DNA of 23,505 nt from a virus. Under the pieces are notes generated by a model. It was not told the origin of the DNA. It saw nothing but the letters and a program-made list of their open reading frames with translations, and searched no databases. Position 1 is the stretch's first letter, and every line of letters starts with the position of its first letter. Both the position numbers and the translations under genes were made by a program. Shown here in pieces: positions 4,737 to 23,505 of this stretch. The stretch spans positions 1-23,505 of the IMG/VR virus record IMGVR_UViG_3300032753_000877, one strand, 5' to 3'.

Positions 4737-4763
4737 AAAAAGTTAAACAATTCATAGTTTAAC
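4737..4763 (-). terminator. Hairpin plus U tract, possible weak intrinsic terminator
   Basis: Read on the - strand, GTTAAAC and GTTTAAC form a 7-bp stem around an 8-base loop, followed directly by five Ts. It overlaps the stop codon of the 68-aa ORF and precedes the ribosome site of the holin candidate. The stem is AT-rich, so termination would be partial. It could reduce lysis-gene expression relative to the virion genes upstream. Confidence 0.4.
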
Positions 4764-4965
4764 CTTCATCATCATCTACTGCAATAAAGCCACTACCCCA
4801 TTCATCATCGCTAATCTTTTGCTTTAATTTCTCAATATTGACTGCGCGGTCAATCACCTTACATTTATCGGTAAGGGAAGCCATGTCATCGTTCATGACT
4901 TGCTGGAGCAGCTTGCTGACCGCTGCTTCTAGATCGGGGTTTACGCCTTTGGATTTTTTGCTCAT
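4759..4965 (-). CDS. Small helical hypothetical protein
   Basis: The start is ATG 4965, overlapping the stop of the 755-aa gene as ATGA; this gives 68 aa. A longer frame from 5052 would lie inside the upstream gene and was rejected. The protein is mainly helical: NPDLEAAVSKLLQQV, then TDKCKVIDRAVNIEKLKQK, with a very acidic tail (DDDEG). There is no membrane segment. It follows the internal virion candidates and could be a chaperone, adaptor or small terminase-like helical protein. No specific family is recognised. Confidence 0.65.
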   Translation of the reverse strand: MSKKSKGVNPDLEAAVSKLLQQVMNDDMASLTDKCKVIDRAVNIEKLKQKISDDEWGSGFIAVDDDEG

Positions 4966-13370: not shown

Positions 13371-15320
13371 TTATAGTCCTACCTTTGTTTTTAGTTGTTC
13401 AATAATTGCTTGTTGTTCTTGAATTGCTTTGACGAGGAATGGTATTACACCGCTATTATCCATTTGCTGATATTTAGGTGTTCCATCTTCGTTTACTGCA
13501 TCTTTTTCACCAGTTACACAATTAGGAATAACGGCTTGCAATTCATGCGCCAAGAAACCATCATCTTTACGACCATCTACCCAAGTAAAGCTAACTGGAT
13601 TTAATGCTTGAATTGTAGATAAACCACTTGCAAGAGGGGAAACATCATTCTTTAAACGATAGTCAGATGTGGTGTTGTAAAGAACCGCAGTAGTGCCGTT
13701 TTGTGAAACAGAGCCAATTTGTGTTCCATTATAAATATATTGGTTAAATACTGTTCCAGATGCTGCGCCACTTGGATGATTAATAGCGCAAATACCATAA
13801 CCATTGACAGTTGAAAGTTGGATATTGCTGTTTGTAGTGCCAATAGTACTAAATAAAGAACCATTATTATCAATGTAGCATCTAGGATTACCAGCACCAT
13901 CAGATAACACAATGTAGTTACTTGCTGTACGGATGTCTAGACCGCCTTGATTGCCGTTGTAGCAACCTAAAATGGTATTGTTTCCACCTGTTGTTAATGA
14001 ATTTCCTGATTGTGCGCCAATAGCTGTATTGCTTCCACCAGTTGCATTTGCTAAAGCCCCAGCACCAATTGCAGTATTGTTGTTTGAAGTAGTGTTTGTT
14101 TGTAAAGCGCCAGCACCAACAGCAACACTAACACCGCCAGTTGTAATTGCACGACCAGCATTTGCTCCTACAAAAACAGAACCAGTAGAATCAGCACCCG
14201 CTGGATTATAAGATTGCGCTGCTTGCCAACCAATTGCAGTTAAATAACTTTGAGTAGTGTTTGCATTTGCAGCTTGATAACCAAAAATAGCATTATTTGC
14301 ACCAGTTGTATTACTATACCCAGCTTGATAACCTACTGCTGTGTTATTAGATGCTGTGGTGTTTCCATTAAGTGCTAAATGACCTACGGCTGTGTTGTAA
14401 GAACCAGTAGAGTTTGTTCCTAATGCACCATTCAAAGCACCATTTTGACCACCACCAATAGCGGTATTCATTGTTCCTGTGGTGTTATTTCTTAAACTGC
14501 AAAAACCCATTGCGGTGTTGTTATTAGCAGTGGTATTTGATTCACCACAACGAACACCAACAAAAGTTGAACCACTACCAGTTGTGTTTGCATTACCAGC
14601 GTTAAATCCAACAGCAGTATTTTCTATGGCTGTATTGCTATATAGAGCTTGATAACCTACTGCTGTGTTATTAGATGCGGTGGTGTTTTGGTCTAACGCA
14701 TTTCTACCTACTGCCACATTATATGAACCAGTAGTATTTGATTCCATTGCAGCAAAACCTAATACCACATTATTAGTACCAGTTGTATTTGCTGTTAAAG
14801 ATGCAGCTCCTAATGAAGTATTGGCTGCGCCAGTTGTATTAACCAGCATTGCTTGATAACCAACAGAAGTATTATTGTTTGTTTGATTATTATTTAAAGA
14901 CTGGTAACCAATAGCTGTATTGTTTACACCAGAACTTGCATTTTGATTTGCACCGTTTCCGACTACGGTATTGCTAGATATAGCACCACCACCCTTACCA
15001 ACAGTAAGACCTGATATAGAAGCATCATTAGCTAAAGTTAATGTAGTGCCGTTAAAGGTCAAATTAGACGATGTTGTGCCGACACTTGTAGATCCGCTAT
15101 AAACAACAGCATTAGCGGTTGCATAGGTAATATTTGCAGTAATATTGGCAGTACCGCTAGTGATCGTAGCGTTTTGCAATGTTACATTACCAAGCGTGGT
15201 AACGGTGTTTCCAAGACCAACGGTAGTGTTACCGATAGTTAAGCCAGTATTAAAGTTGGCATCTAGGTTGGTTAACGGTATGCTTGTTGTAGCATTACCA
15301 AAGACATACGGAACTCCCAT
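13371..15320 (-). CDS. Long tail fibre with YadA-like repeats and C-terminal S74 intramolecular chaperone
   Basis: This 649-aa protein has three parts. Residues 1-110 are an N-terminal Gly/Thr/Asn-rich fibre region that should attach to the virion. Residues 131-458 are about 19 imperfect 17-residue repeats of the NNTAVGYQALxSNTTGS type. Residues 550-649 are a peptidase S74 / intramolecular chaperone domain: TSDYRLKNDV with Ser552 and Lys557 at the Ser-x4-Lys spacing of the self-cleaving dyad, then GFLAHELQAVIPN and a terminal coiled coil (EQQAIIEQLKTK). S74 domains trimerise the fibre and then cut themselves off. The repeats resemble the AIG/AVG units of YadA-type adhesin heads, which fold as a beta-roll. 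It is probably the main receptor-binding fibre. Confidence 0.9.
   Translation of the reverse strand: MGVPYVFGNATTSIPLTNLDANFNTGLTIGNTTVGLGNTVTTLGNVTLQNATITSGTANITANITYATANAVVYSGSTSVGTTSSNLTFNGTTLTLANDASISGLTVGKGGGAISSNTVVGNGANQNASSGVNNTAIGYQSLNNNQTNNNTSVGYQAMLVNTTGAANTSLGAASLTANTTGTNNVVLGFAAMESNTTGSYNVAVGRNALDQNTTASNNTAVGYQALYSNTAIENTAVGFNAGNANTTGSGSTFVGVRCGESNTTANNNTAMGFCSLRNNTTGTMNTAIGGGQNGALNGALGTNSTGSYNTAVGHLALNGNTTASNNTAVGYQAGYSNTTGANNAIFGYQAANANTTQSYLTAIGWQAAQSYNPAGADSTGSVFVGANAGRAITTGGVSVAVGAGALQTNTTSNNNTAIGAGALANATGGSNTAIGAQSGNSLTTGGNNTILGCYNGNQGGLDIRTASNYIVLSDGAGNPRCYIDNNGSLFSTIGTTNSNIQLSTVNGYGICAINHPSGAASGTVFNQYIYNGTQIGSVSQNGTTAVLYNTTSDYRLKNDVSPLASGLSTIQALNPVSFTWVDGRKDDGFLAHELQAVIPNCVTGEKDAVNEDGTPKYQQMDNSGVIPFLVKAIQEQQAIIEQLKTKVGL
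13947..14930 (-). repeat. About 19 tandem 51-base (17-aa) imperfect repeats in the fibre gene
   Basis: The unit is roughly N-N-T-A-V/I-G-x-x-A-x-x-x-N-T-T-G/A-S. Most copies are 16-17 residues; two carry insertions (about residues 288-306 and 370-380). Two near-identical pairs occur, NNTAVGYQALYSNT and NNTAVGYQAGYSNTT. Copy number could change by recombination, altering fibre length. Confidence 0.85.
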
Positions 15321-21230: not shown

Positions 21231-21737
21231 TTACATTTGTGGAGTTGCGGAAGGCACACCAGCGCCAGGCATACCGCCAGCTTGGGCTGGAGGAGGAACT
21301 GGAGCAGACATACCTGGGATTGTTGGTGCTTGGTTCATTGCTTTGCCTTCTGCTGTAGCACCGCCAGCTTGAGGTAATGTTTGAAGCATTTGCATAATTT
21401 CGTTAGGTTGCAACTCATTCACCTTAGCCTTCTTAGGCCCGATAACGGAAGTCATTGTGCGAATTGCATTTAAAACCTTTTGACCTTCTTCGGATTCGCT
21501 ACCCAAAGCTGGTAATGTTTGTTCCAGCAAATCCATCGCCATCGAAATGTTAATCATCGCGGCTTCGCGGTTTCCCATTTTTGGTTCTGGAGTGGACATT
21601 GGTGCTCCCATCGGAGGAGCGGAAGTATCTGACATACCCATAGATGGTGTATCAGGTGTAGGAGCTGCACCAGCGGGTGTTGCACCATCCCGTTGGGATT
21701 TAATCATTTGCATCAACTGGTCTGAGGGTACGCCCAT
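21231..21737 (-). CDS. Low-complexity Pro/Met/Ala-rich protein in the head module
   Basis: I choose ATG 21737 (168 aa), which has AGGA six bases upstream, over the TTG at 21752. Residues 20-55 and 125-168 are Pro/Ala/Gly/Met-rich and disordered. The middle (about 57-120) is helical (NREAAMINISMAMDLLEQTLPALG, then LNAIRTMTSVIGPK). It is the first gene after the putative promoter at 21763-21790. Its place between portal and scaffold suggests an assembly or head-internal protein; no family is recognised. Confidence 0.65.
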   Translation of the reverse strand: MGVPSDQLMQMIKSQRDGATPAGAAPTPDTPSMGMSDTSAPPMGAPMSTPEPKMGNREAAMINISMAMDLLEQTLPALGSESEEGQKVLNAIRTMTSVIGPKKAKVNELQPNEIMQMLQTLPQAGGATAEGKAMNQAPTIPGMSAPVPPPAQAGGMPGAGVPSATPQM

Positions 21738-21762: not shown

Positions 21763-21790
21763 ATCGTAATCTTAATCTATTGCTTGTCAA
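21763..21790 (-). promoter_or_regulatory. Sigma70-like promoter before the 168-aa/scaffold/capsid genes
   Basis: On the - strand a perfect TTGACA (21790-21785) is followed after 16 bases by TACGAT (21768-21763), four of six to TATAAT. Transcription would start near 21756, about 19 bases before ATG 21737, leaving room for its AGGA ribosome site. It sits just downstream of several hairpins in the only loosely packed part of the - strand block. Confidence 0.6.
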
Positions 21791-21792
21791 GT

Positions 21793-21821
21793 GGGGAGGT
21801 TTATTTAGTTTCCTCCTCCCC
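21793..21821. repeat. GC-rich inverted repeat upstream of the promoter
   Basis: GGGGAGG (21793-21799) pairs with CCTCCCC (21815-21821) around a 15-base AT-rich loop. There is no U tract. It abuts the -35 box of the putative promoter and may serve as a terminator core or protein-binding site. Confidence 0.4.
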
Positions 21822-21830
21822 TAGGACGGA

Positions 21831-21845
21831 TTCGGTCTGACCGAA
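21831..21845. repeat. Perfect palindrome TTCGGTCTGACCGAA
   Basis: TTCGGTC and GACCGAA flank a single central base. It could be an operator-like dyad or a small hairpin; there is no direct evidence of which. Confidence 0.4.
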
Positions 21846-21880
21846 GTAATCAGAGGGTTTTAGCCCTCATACGATTACTT
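21844..21880 (-). terminator. Two-part hairpin at the end of the second tiny basic ORF
   Basis: An outer 8-bp stem AAGTAATC/GATTACTT (21844-21851 with 21873-21880) encloses an inner stem GAGGG/CCCTC with a six-base loop. The outer arm includes the stop codon of the 13-aa ORF at 21875-21916. No clear U run follows. Likely roles are a transcript end or an mRNA 3' end after the portal operon, just before the next promoter. Confidence 0.4.
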
Positions 21881-21916
21881 GCGAGATTTACGACCTTTGC
21901 GAGCTTTGCGTGCCAT
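21875..21916 (-). CDS. Tiny Lys/Arg-rich peptide B (13 aa)
   Basis: The peptide is MARKARKGRKSRK. It has nine basic residues and no acidic ones. GGAG lies nine bases before the ATG. It resembles peptide A at 21997-22038 (shared RKA-x-K...RKSR pattern) and is also 13 codons long. A protamine-like DNA-binding or packaged peptide is conceivable, in analogy to the small basic J protein of microviruses. An ORF this short could be chance, but two similar ones with ribosome sites in tandem argue against that. Confidence 0.55.
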   Translation of the reverse strand: MARKARKGRKSRK

Positions 21917-21968
21917 GTGAGTATTCTCCAGTTAGCAGCGGCCACTTAGTTCCAGGGCAAGCAGCCAT
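21888..21968 (-). CDS. Possible 26-aa ORF overlapping tiny peptide B (doubtful)
   Basis: An ATG at 21968 preceded by GGGAG at eight bases opens a 26-codon frame (MAACPGTKWPLLTGEYS...) that runs into peptide B in another frame. It may be a real leader that couples translation to peptide B, or noise. Nothing in the product is recognisable. Confidence 0.25.
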   Translation of the reverse strand: MAACPGTKWPLLTGEYSHGTQSSQRS

Positions 21969-21996
21969 ACCCTTTTCTCCCGTGAAGGAAAACCTA

Positions 21997-22038
21997 TTAA
22001 CGGCGTGACTTGCGTGACTTTTTATGAGCTTTTCTCAT
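21997..22038 (-). CDS. Tiny Lys/Arg-rich peptide A (13 aa)
   Basis: The peptide is MRKAHKKSRKSRR, with eight Lys/Arg and one His out of 13 and no acidic residue. AGGAG (22045-22049) is followed by three in-frame ATGs; the third, at 22038, has the best spacing (six bases), and starts at 22041 or 22044 would only add Met. It follows the 54-aa ORF by 18 bases, in the same direction as portal and capsid genes. Together with peptide B it forms a tandem pair of basic peptides between portal and scaffold. Confidence 0.6.
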   Translation of the reverse strand: MRKAHKKSRKSRR

Positions 22039-22056
22039 CATCATCTCCTAAGTTAG

Positions 22057-22221
22057 TTATCCCCTAACTGAACGACCATAATCACGAGTTTTTGAACTTC
22101 TGTCAAAACTCTTGATTCCTTGAGTACGATACTGCAAATTTGGGCTACCCTCACTACGCTTTAAATTTTCCGTAGTAACTCTAGGTTGATCAGCCTTTGG
22201 TTGAACATTACCCGTTGCCAT
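22057..22221 (-). CDS. 54-aa hypothetical protein after the portal gene
   Basis: ATG 22221 overlaps the portal stop as TAATG. The protein is polar and basic (QPKADQPRVTTENLKRS, then SFDRSSKTRDYGRSVRG), with no hydrophobic core, so it is likely disordered. Translational coupling to the portal supports it as a real gene. The function is unknown. Confidence 0.65.
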   Translation of the reverse strand: MATGNVQPKADQPRVTTENLKRSEGSPNLQYRTQGIKSFDRSSKTRDYGRSVRG

Positions 22222-23505
22222 TATTCGCCTTTCGGTTCTTTCTTTTCTTTAGGAGCTGGTTGAGGTTGCGGGTTGGCAGCCTGTTCCTTTTCCCGTTTCT
22301 TTAACTTGTCTTTGATCAACTGCTTCATTGGTGGTTCAACCAAATCAACCAGCGTTTCTTTATCGATAGCTTGCGCCTTAAATAAATTAAATGCAAGTTG
22401 TTTTAGATCTTCCGTAAAGATTGGGCTATTGCTATGCGCATCAACCTTCACAACGAAATCCTTAGTAAATTGCTCGGCAATAAACGGCACATCTTCTGTA
22501 TCGCGGAAATGCGTGTCGTCATACGCTTGCATCATCTTCAAATACAAAGTTGCTACCTTTTCCAAGCTATCTTCAACGATTAAAGCGCGTTTTTTCGCGC
22601 GTGAGCTACCAAGACGAGCTAATTGGCTTGCATGACCCGTAGAACGGACACCAGCCTCGCCTTTTCCGCTCAATACATTGGAAATACCCGAAACTTCCGA
22701 GAACATCGCGTCAATTTCGTGAATAACCTCAAATAAATCAGGTGGCATCTCTGGTGCAAGGCGATCTACCTTTGCTCCTGGCATATCCGTGGCAATCATT
22801 GATCCAGCGCGCTGCATAGCAAAATATTTCTCGTCTGTAATTCCTGAGAAGCCACTAAATGCGGTTGGTGGAGCTACTTGTTTAGACAATAGGTCTAAAA
22901 CTTCGGTCATGCGGGTGTTGCGCAGCTGCTGAAGCAAGATAAGTTGCTGGCACTCGGACGCACCCCAGTAATAATCGTATAAAGGGTTAGGGCAGATCTG
23001 TACAAACGGGCATTCGCCCTTGAGGAACACAGATGCGCCTGGTCTATCGTAAATAATGACATCGGGCGCGGCCATTGTGACCACTTGATAATCCTCGGTG
23101 TCATCATTCCACACCCACAACTCAGTCATCTCAATCGTTTCTTCGGCTACGCGGGACTTATAGCGGTTCATGCCGTATAAATCCAAATTTACATTACCGT
23201 AGATGGTTGGATTGGTCTGGCTCATCACGATGCGGTTCACCGCTTCTGGAATGTCAGACTCAGATACTTTTGTTCCTGTGGTTACGCGAGAAACAATCGA
23301 ATCGCGCTTTGGATGGGAATACAGACGGGCATAGAGCTCAGACTTGGTAATGTAGTATGTTTGAACGATAGCTTCTTGCCTGTCTGTATAGGGCGTATCC
23401 TCCCGCAAAACACCAATAGCAGAAGGCTCAATCATGTAAGGGTGGATGCCGTTCTTGTAAACCAGCTTGATAAAGGTTGAGTTGTAAACCAATGACCAAG
23501 TCAAG
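22221..23505 (-). CDS. Portal protein, C-terminal part (N-terminus beyond the window)
   Basis: The frame is open to the window edge, so about 428 C-terminal residues are seen and the start is missing. Features of a P22-like or related portal include a long region with YITKSELYARLYSHPKRD, ETIEMTELWVWND and the segment CPNPLYDYYWGASECQQLI, followed by LLQQLRNTRMTEVLDLLSKQ. A loop GKGEAGVRSTGHASQLARLGSSRAKK then leads to long C-terminal helices. The end is Lys/Gln/Pro-rich (EKEQAANPQPQPAPKEKK). Portals form the dodecameric DNA-entry ring. The terminase genes are expected to lie to the right, outside the window. Confidence 0.85.
   Translation of the reverse strand, partial: LTWSLVYNSTFIKLVYKNGIHPYMIEPSAIGVLREDTPYTDRQEAIVQTYYITKSELYARLYSHPKRDSIVSRVTTGTKVSESDIPEAVNRIVMSQTNPTIYGNVNLDLYGMNRYKSRVAEETIEMTELWVWNDDTEDYQVVTMAAPDVIIYDRPGASVFLKGECPFVQICPNPLYDYYWGASECQQLILLQQLRNTRMTEVLDLLSKQVAPPTAFSGFSGITDEKYFAMQRAGSMIATDMPGAKVDRLAPEMPPDLFEVIHEIDAMFSEVSGISNVLSGKGEAGVRSTGHASQLARLGSSRAKKRALIVEDSLEKVATLYLKMMQAYDDTHFRDTEDVPFIAEQFTKDFVVKVDAHSNSPIFTEDLKQLAFNLFKAQAIDKETLVDLVEPPMKQLIKDKLKKREKEQAANPQPQPAPKEKKEPKGE

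Follow-up and report, generated by a model that had tools for sequence, protein, structure and literature searches.

Tandem Arg/Lys-rich micro-genes and a linked RNA pseudoknot in the head-assembly operon of a group of freshwater tailed phages

The stretch of DNA analysed here (the window, 23,505 bases) is an IMG/VR virus record and represents a fragment of a podovirus-type genome, whose nearest complete relatives, MW202753 and MW202825, are circular records of 34-36 kb from Manatee Spring. The head-assembly genes follow the order portal, 54-aa basic ORF, micro-ORF A, micro-ORF C, 168-aa Pro/Met-rich ORF, 61-aa ORF, 180-aa ORF and major capsid protein, in which the 180-aa product is coiled-coil-like and scaffold-like. 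An earlier note on this DNA had described two 13-codon ORFs with Shine-Dalgarno sites between the portal and scaffold genes; both ORFs and both sites are present on the minus strand, and the general location is right, although the pair is not adjacent to the scaffold-like gene. The adaptor and capsid proteins of the window match Pfam SU10_adaptor and PHROG 9953, respectively. The features of the region are as follows.

22221..23505, minus strand: portal protein, its 5' end lying beyond the window; matches Pfam SU10_portal (E 3.2e-10) and PHROG portal families
22057..22221, minus strand: basic ORF of 54 aa (net +6), directly 5' of A; kept in most relatives
22045..22049, minus strand: Shine-Dalgarno site AGGAG of A, 6 nt 5' of the third ATG
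21997..22038, minus strand (22038->21997): micro-ORF A, MRKAHKKSRKSRR; relatives at the same place
21974..21992, minus strand: small hairpin (UUUUCC..GGAGAAAA), directly 5' of the pseudoknot
21940..21974, minus strand: H-type RNA pseudoknot, identified by covariation and a covariance model; P1 pairs 21973-21969 with 21958-21954, and P2 pairs 21966-21959 (GGCUGCUU) with 21947-21940 (AAGUGGCC)
21926..21929, minus strand: Shine-Dalgarno site GGAG of C
21875..21916, minus strand (21916->21875): micro-ORF C, MARKARKGRKSRK
21792..21872, minus strand: run of hairpins after C (GAGGGCUAAAACCCUC, UUCGGUCAGACCGAA, GGGGAGG..CCUCCCC); recurs in relatives
21763..21790, minus strand: sigma-70-like promoter TTGACA-16-TACGAT for the downstream head genes (10/12 matches)
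21231..21737, minus strand: Pro/Met-rich ORF of 168 aa, start ATG at 21737, 3' of C; also downstream in relatives

Lys and Arg make up 8 of the 13 residues in each peptide and A holds one His in addition, in agreement with the 8-9 basic residues previously counted. Both are dominated by Arg and Lys and are of low complexity, with RKx repeats, a protamine-like composition. For A, in-frame ATGs also occur at 22041 and 22044 (MM-, MMM-), so that products of 13, 14 or 15 aa are possible, and SD-like sites also precede its homologues in relatives. The 26-aa ATG ORF lying between the two micro-ORFs (21968->21888) was a candidate third gene but was dismissed, since relatives do not conserve it and its 'start' ATG falls in loop 1 of the pseudoknot (GGGU[A/G]UGGC). 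In MW202753.1 (locus L280), A lies at 4758-4799 and C at 4878-4919; the GenBank hypothetical proteins UOF81572.1 and UOF81573.1 (4740-4877 and 4874-5038) run over both on the opposite strand and look like spurious gene calls.

Elsewhere in the window, inspection by eye picked out two plus-strand ORFs, one at 454-1596 with a CxxxCxxC-like cluster (CNHGCFFC) that recalls radical-SAM proteins and one at 1605-2369 resembling a glycosyltransferase. A large minus-strand protein (13371-15320) carries repeats of the NTA.GYQA...NTTG kind and ends in what looks like a self-cleaving endosialidase-type chaperone; the tail region of MW202753 includes a gene annotated as an endosialidase-type chaperone. Matches to the portal in genome bins fall in Legionella, betaproteobacterial, patescibacterial and alphaproteobacterial bins.

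We then gathered related loci using the portal, the capsid protein, a divergent portal alignment, a more distant portal, the C pattern and the RNA pattern. Scored by the portal anchor only, all 198 distinct loci of the first lineage contain one to three basic micro-ORFs. With the divergent set added, micro-ORFs occur at the same place in 239 of 251 distinct portal-anchored loci. The short basic ORFs with SD sites that the earlier note expected in related phages are widespread, and they persist in relatives with portals as little as 39% identical. These 251 loci comprise 176 with A and C, 38 with C only, 25 with A only and 12 with neither. Homologues of A, ending in RKSRR or RKTRR, are found at the same place in 201 of them, and C, preceded by the pseudoknot, in 214. 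Wherever a locus holds the flanking genes, the position is between the portal and capsid genes. To these may be added features that go beyond the earlier note, namely a covarying pseudoknot locked to C, a frequent third copy, and loci missing A or C alone.

Such ORFs are rare elsewhere in the same DNA. A filter for ATG-initiated ORFs of 9-16 aa with at least 50% K+R and an SD site, run over 279 loci (4.07 Mb of strand), returned 302 unique matches, of which only about three lie outside the A/C family. The only matches in the 23.5-kb window are A and C, and the same holds for the complete 35.6-kb MW202753 genome. In the stretches read, no basic micro-ORFs were seen in L350-L354, distant relatives by capsid protein, or in SU10 and phiEco32 (L360, L361), whose portal family is common with the window.

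The variation among relatives is that of protein-coding sequence. Single-base codon differences are synonymous in 87% of cases for A and 89% for C, compared with 24% expected and 0.2-11% off frame. Because the first version of this test used ORFs selected for basic residues, it was repeated on non-overlapping pairs from portal-anchored loci, giving pN/pS of 0.21-0.31 for A of 12-14 aa and C of 12-13 aa; the bias is synonymous, as the earlier note anticipated, and basic character is kept. The 12- and 13-aa forms of C give 0.22-0.28, and the 15-aa form, for which there are just three pairs, gives 0.50. The codons used for Arg and Lys drift. Start codon, SD and stop are kept as length changes by whole codons. 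No locus was seen in which the ORFs carry frameshifts or stops and the element around them is intact. Taken at the level of comparative sequence evidence, A and C are real protein-coding micro-genes.

The consensus of A is MYGKK.KRGRK[ST]RR or MRK..KKSRK[ST]RR and that of C is M(A)RKxRKGRKxRK, with C-termini of RR, KR, RK, CK or CR among relatives. Some copies of A start with GTG (L116, L075), and C has a 24-aa form in L323, L338 and L343 (MMYGKAKMAPKMARMGRKARKGRK and variants). Third copies, of a Z type ending in SCK, occur for example in L007, L022, L052, L056, L102 and L105. In L403, three successive and mutually different micro-ORFs (MAYKSVKRSRRGKRK, MARRKGRKAKR and MRRKARKARR) lie 171-370 nt past the portal stop, with only composition in common and no recognisable pseudoknot; this set is apparently an independent expansion. 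L401 has an intact pseudoknot and a C frame, ARKGRKSRKMCK, about 235 nt past the portal stop, with ATA where its near relative L394 has ATG, possibly a non-standard start or a sequencing error. Apparent additional micro-ORFs in L374-L381 (e.g. MRKKRTMKRKA) were not counted, since they fall within the downstream gene. Across relatives, the basic residues shift freely in register and spacing, and composition is kept while sequence, length and copy number vary.

The interval from A to C contains a conserved non-ORF element, GGGU[A/G]UGGCU-GCUU-CCC-(loop)-AAGUGGCC. The first GGG run pairs with the CCC run to form P1, and GGCUGCUU in the P1 loop pairs with the downstream AAGUGGCC to form P2, crossing P1. 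Across 60 distinct sequences, 84.9% of pairs are standard and double changes affect 10 of 14 pairs (4/5 in P1, 6/9 in P2). Double-change cells number 84, versus 27.0+-3.8 after shuffling; the covariation score is 0.302, reached by 0 of 500 shuffles (0.113+-0.010), and sliding the partners by 1-3 columns gives at most 0.146. Compensatory variants include CGGG/CCCG, TGGG/CCCA, GAGG/CCTC, CCGG/CCGG and TAAG/CTTA in P1, and GACUU/AAGUU, GCAUU/AAUGU and CCUGCUC/GAGUAGG in P2. A covariance model finds the element once in the window (21940-21974, minus strand; 42.4 bits, E 1.3e-7) and once in the complete MW202753 genome. In the window region Rfam gave nothing at E<=5, and among 10 relatives only CyVA-1 in L226, at 22.5 bits against a gathering score of 41.4; this match is sub-threshold and lies away from the pseudoknot, and CyVA-1 was rejected as its identity.

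Since unrelated windows score similarly when the best pseudoknot is sought freely, that score is too permissive, and linkage was judged by the conserved GGCU-type anchor together with the covariance model. On this basis the pseudoknot is present in all 214 loci with C, 212 by pattern and two (L342, L431) by inspection. Loci scored as A-only or as having neither ORF lack it, with three exceptions: L311, which was scored without C and yet has both C and the pseudoknot on inspection, and L373 and L412, which are pattern artefacts. A scan with the C peptide yielded 80 loci, 79 of them with the pseudoknot and one ending too close. Conversely, 76 new loci came from a scan with the RNA pattern alone; in 75 of these C follows at a distance of 17-24 nt, and the remaining sequence breaks off within C. 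In relatives, the 3' end of the pseudoknot lies a median of 21 nt (mostly 19-23) from the ATG of C and 9 nt from its SD. The footprint of the ribosome on mRNA in the 30S initiation complex is established, and with its 3' end about 21 nt from the start codon the pseudoknot adjoins the stretch that an initiating 30S subunit covers. Most likely, the pseudoknot tunes initiation at C, perhaps through a ligand.

The small hairpin 5' of the pseudoknot is usually present in relatives, with modest support (mean dG -5.4 kcal/mol, mean z -1.1, 101 loci). On the other side of C, the segment 21760-21874 has an MFE of -32.6 kcal/mol (z -3.28). The TTGACA of the promoter after C is conserved at the same place in alignments; another TTGACA-like site, at 22106 within the 54-aa ORF, was set aside because the alignment shows no conservation of it.

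Relatives with conserved neighbours generally keep the ORFs, as the earlier note's proposal demands, with the exception of one clade. The 12 loci without micro-ORFs (L359, L362-L366 and L368-L373) share the neighbouring genes yet have neither of the ORFs and no pseudoknot, the 54-aa ORF being followed directly by the TTGACA promoter, and parsimony on the portal tree counts this state as one change. The peptides are therefore not universally needed, and this clade shows that phages can do without their function or supply it by other means. The 54-aa-type protein of the clade ends in a basic GRMKR tail, a possible candidate substitute for the peptides. At the other extreme, L458 and its relatives L521-L524 and L526, with a portal only 39% and a capsid protein about 60% identical to those of the window, keep the hairpin, pseudoknot, SD and C (MARRMRRHKRK, MARRGRRHKRK, MRKGRRHKRK). 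C is followed in this group by another basic peptide, some 13-18 aa long (MAGRRGAKRPRRY, MFVGRHVGYRKPKRGSRK, MAGRPRGARVKRRTKRY, MPGKVRGARKPRRAKRY), whose stop codon overlaps or directly adjoins the next gene's start. In L521, L523, L524 and L526, where several of these peptides end in KRY or RRY, translational coupling to the next gene is possible.

The earlier note had likened the peptides to Microviridae protein J (phiX174), and as a functional analogy the likeness holds in that both are very small, highly basic and encoded among head genes. Protein J is longer, belongs to a single-stranded DNA virus and has a hydrophobic/aromatic C-terminal part contacting the capsid. This part of the comparison fails, as A and C (9-24 aa, one to three copies, in dsDNA tailed phages) have no such C-terminal part. 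Condensing packaged dsDNA is the role proposed for protamine-like viral core proteins (PMC5899202, PMC6163548). Baculovirus P6.9, adenovirus mu and ascovirus P64 resemble A and C in being dominated by Arg and Lys with small spacer residues, but they are bigger, occur abundantly in the virion and belong to viruses of eukaryotes. For the RNA, the T4 gene 32 operator, which serves a nucleic-acid-binding protein, offers an H-type pseudoknot 5' of the ribosome-binding site, about 28 nt long and followed by an unstructured stretch of >40 nt with UUAAA repeats (PMC535899). By contrast, the C pseudoknot is about 35 nt long, ends 21 nt from the ATG of a 12-13-codon ORF and has no UUAAA repeats. By analogy, its position and linkage would fit an autogenous translational operator of the T4 gp32 kind. 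The Downstream-peptide RNA motif of cyanobacteria and cyanophages likewise consists of a conserved structured RNA with a short conserved ORF immediately behind it (PMC2864571), but the C pseudoknot differs in sequence and structure and has no Rfam match in the window or relatives. SU10/phiEco32-type podoviruses (Kuravirus) share with the window the order portal, small ORF, scaffold and capsid; their genomes, however, are about 77 kb, and the ORF after the portal encodes a 78-aa protein of mixed charge. Protein J, the viral protamines, the T4 gene 32 operator and the Downstream-peptide RNA are none of them demonstrated relatives. In open-licence text we found only analogues and no paper on these peptides, and IMG/VR may itself hold gene calls for them. 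Viral peptides that are small and basic are known, and so are pseudoknots acting as translational elements; their combination is not described in the literature searched.

How might these peptides act? We propose, with moderate confidence, that they are polycations that bind nucleic acid during head filling, most likely as a protamine-like packaging cofactor, with the pseudoknot setting the level of C. A and C belong to one family of phage micro-genes of 9-24 codons (mostly 12-15), which encode polycations of the form (R/K-K-x)n and stand in the head-assembly operon singly or as tandem pairs and triplets. The peptides would bind electrostatically to nucleic acid, or to some other surface of strongly acidic character, as heads assemble and fill, probably as a charge-neutralising cofactor of DNA packaging that resides in the virion or associates with it transiently. 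The pseudoknot would set the amount of C, possibly by binding the basic peptide itself. That the peptide is the selected product is suggested by the persistence of A in phages without any RNA element; electrostatic binding is suggested by the way composition and charge outweigh exact sequence, and location in the head operon points to a role in assembly or packaging. Against packaging, charge-neutralising about 36 kb of dsDNA would take thousands of peptide copies, and small cations generally suffice for this in tailed phages. The stronger version, in which freshwater tailed dsDNA phages would encode genuine virion-packaged protamines as tandem polycations of 12-15 residues, the second of them dosed by an autogenous, peptide-bound pseudoknot, we consider unlikely.

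Conservation at the level of composition fits binding to RNA or to an acidic protein equally well. The peptides might act as Arg-rich regulators of phage or host mRNA, with the pseudoknot as their cognate, autogenous site and with no structural role. The structured RNA immediately 5' of C, at near-fixed spacing and locked to C, is an argument from position for this, and T4 gp32, which represses its own mRNA through a pseudoknot, supplies a precedent (PMC535899). However, the A-only phages retain a peptide without the pseudoknot, and the free drift in register and spacing of the basic residues is unusual for a peptide that recognises a specific RNA, so that we regard this explanation as possible but rather doubtful. 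The site between the portal and the scaffold-like and capsid genes, all three of whose products are net acidic, would suit peptides that bind an acidic scaffold, portal or capsid surface, and not nucleic acid, in head assembly or scaffold release; yet no correlated change was found in a neighbour, and an acidic downstream protein also occurs in the clade without peptides, leaving such a cofactor improbable.

Two further explanations would deny the peptides themselves a function. If translation of Arg/Lys codon runs mattered rather than its product, through attenuation, stalling or coupling, the hairpins 3' of C and the basic ORF of the divergent clade, which overlaps or abuts the next start codon, would find a natural place. 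Drifting Arg and Lys codon choice, and the loss of one or two micro-ORFs with the remaining peptide kept, weigh against this. Moreover, in the A-only loci L374-L382 the TTGACA of the next promoter lies 1-2 nt past the A stop, so A cannot lead the downstream transcript; a leader role is accordingly disfavoured and seems very unlikely. Finally, the region does hold conserved RNA structure and a promoter, within which the ORFs could be coincidental, but the synonymous bias in frame and its absence off frame, the persistence of A without the RNA element, and the maintenance of start, SD and stop through whole-codon length changes make this hardly credible.

Few phage genes with comparative evidence for selection are as short as A and C, and both are missed by the GenBank annotation of MW202753, the nearest complete genome. 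That a 12-codon ORF has a covarying pseudoknot of its own in front of it implies a benefit in controlling how much of a 12-residue peptide is made. Should the peptides be packaged, the idea that small cations alone manage genome charge in tailed dsDNA phages would have to be revised; if they bind the pseudoknot, they would form one of the smallest known autoregulatory circuits. In either case, a large group of freshwater tailed phages carries unannotated basic micro-genes, which may represent an overlooked layer of phage assembly or control.
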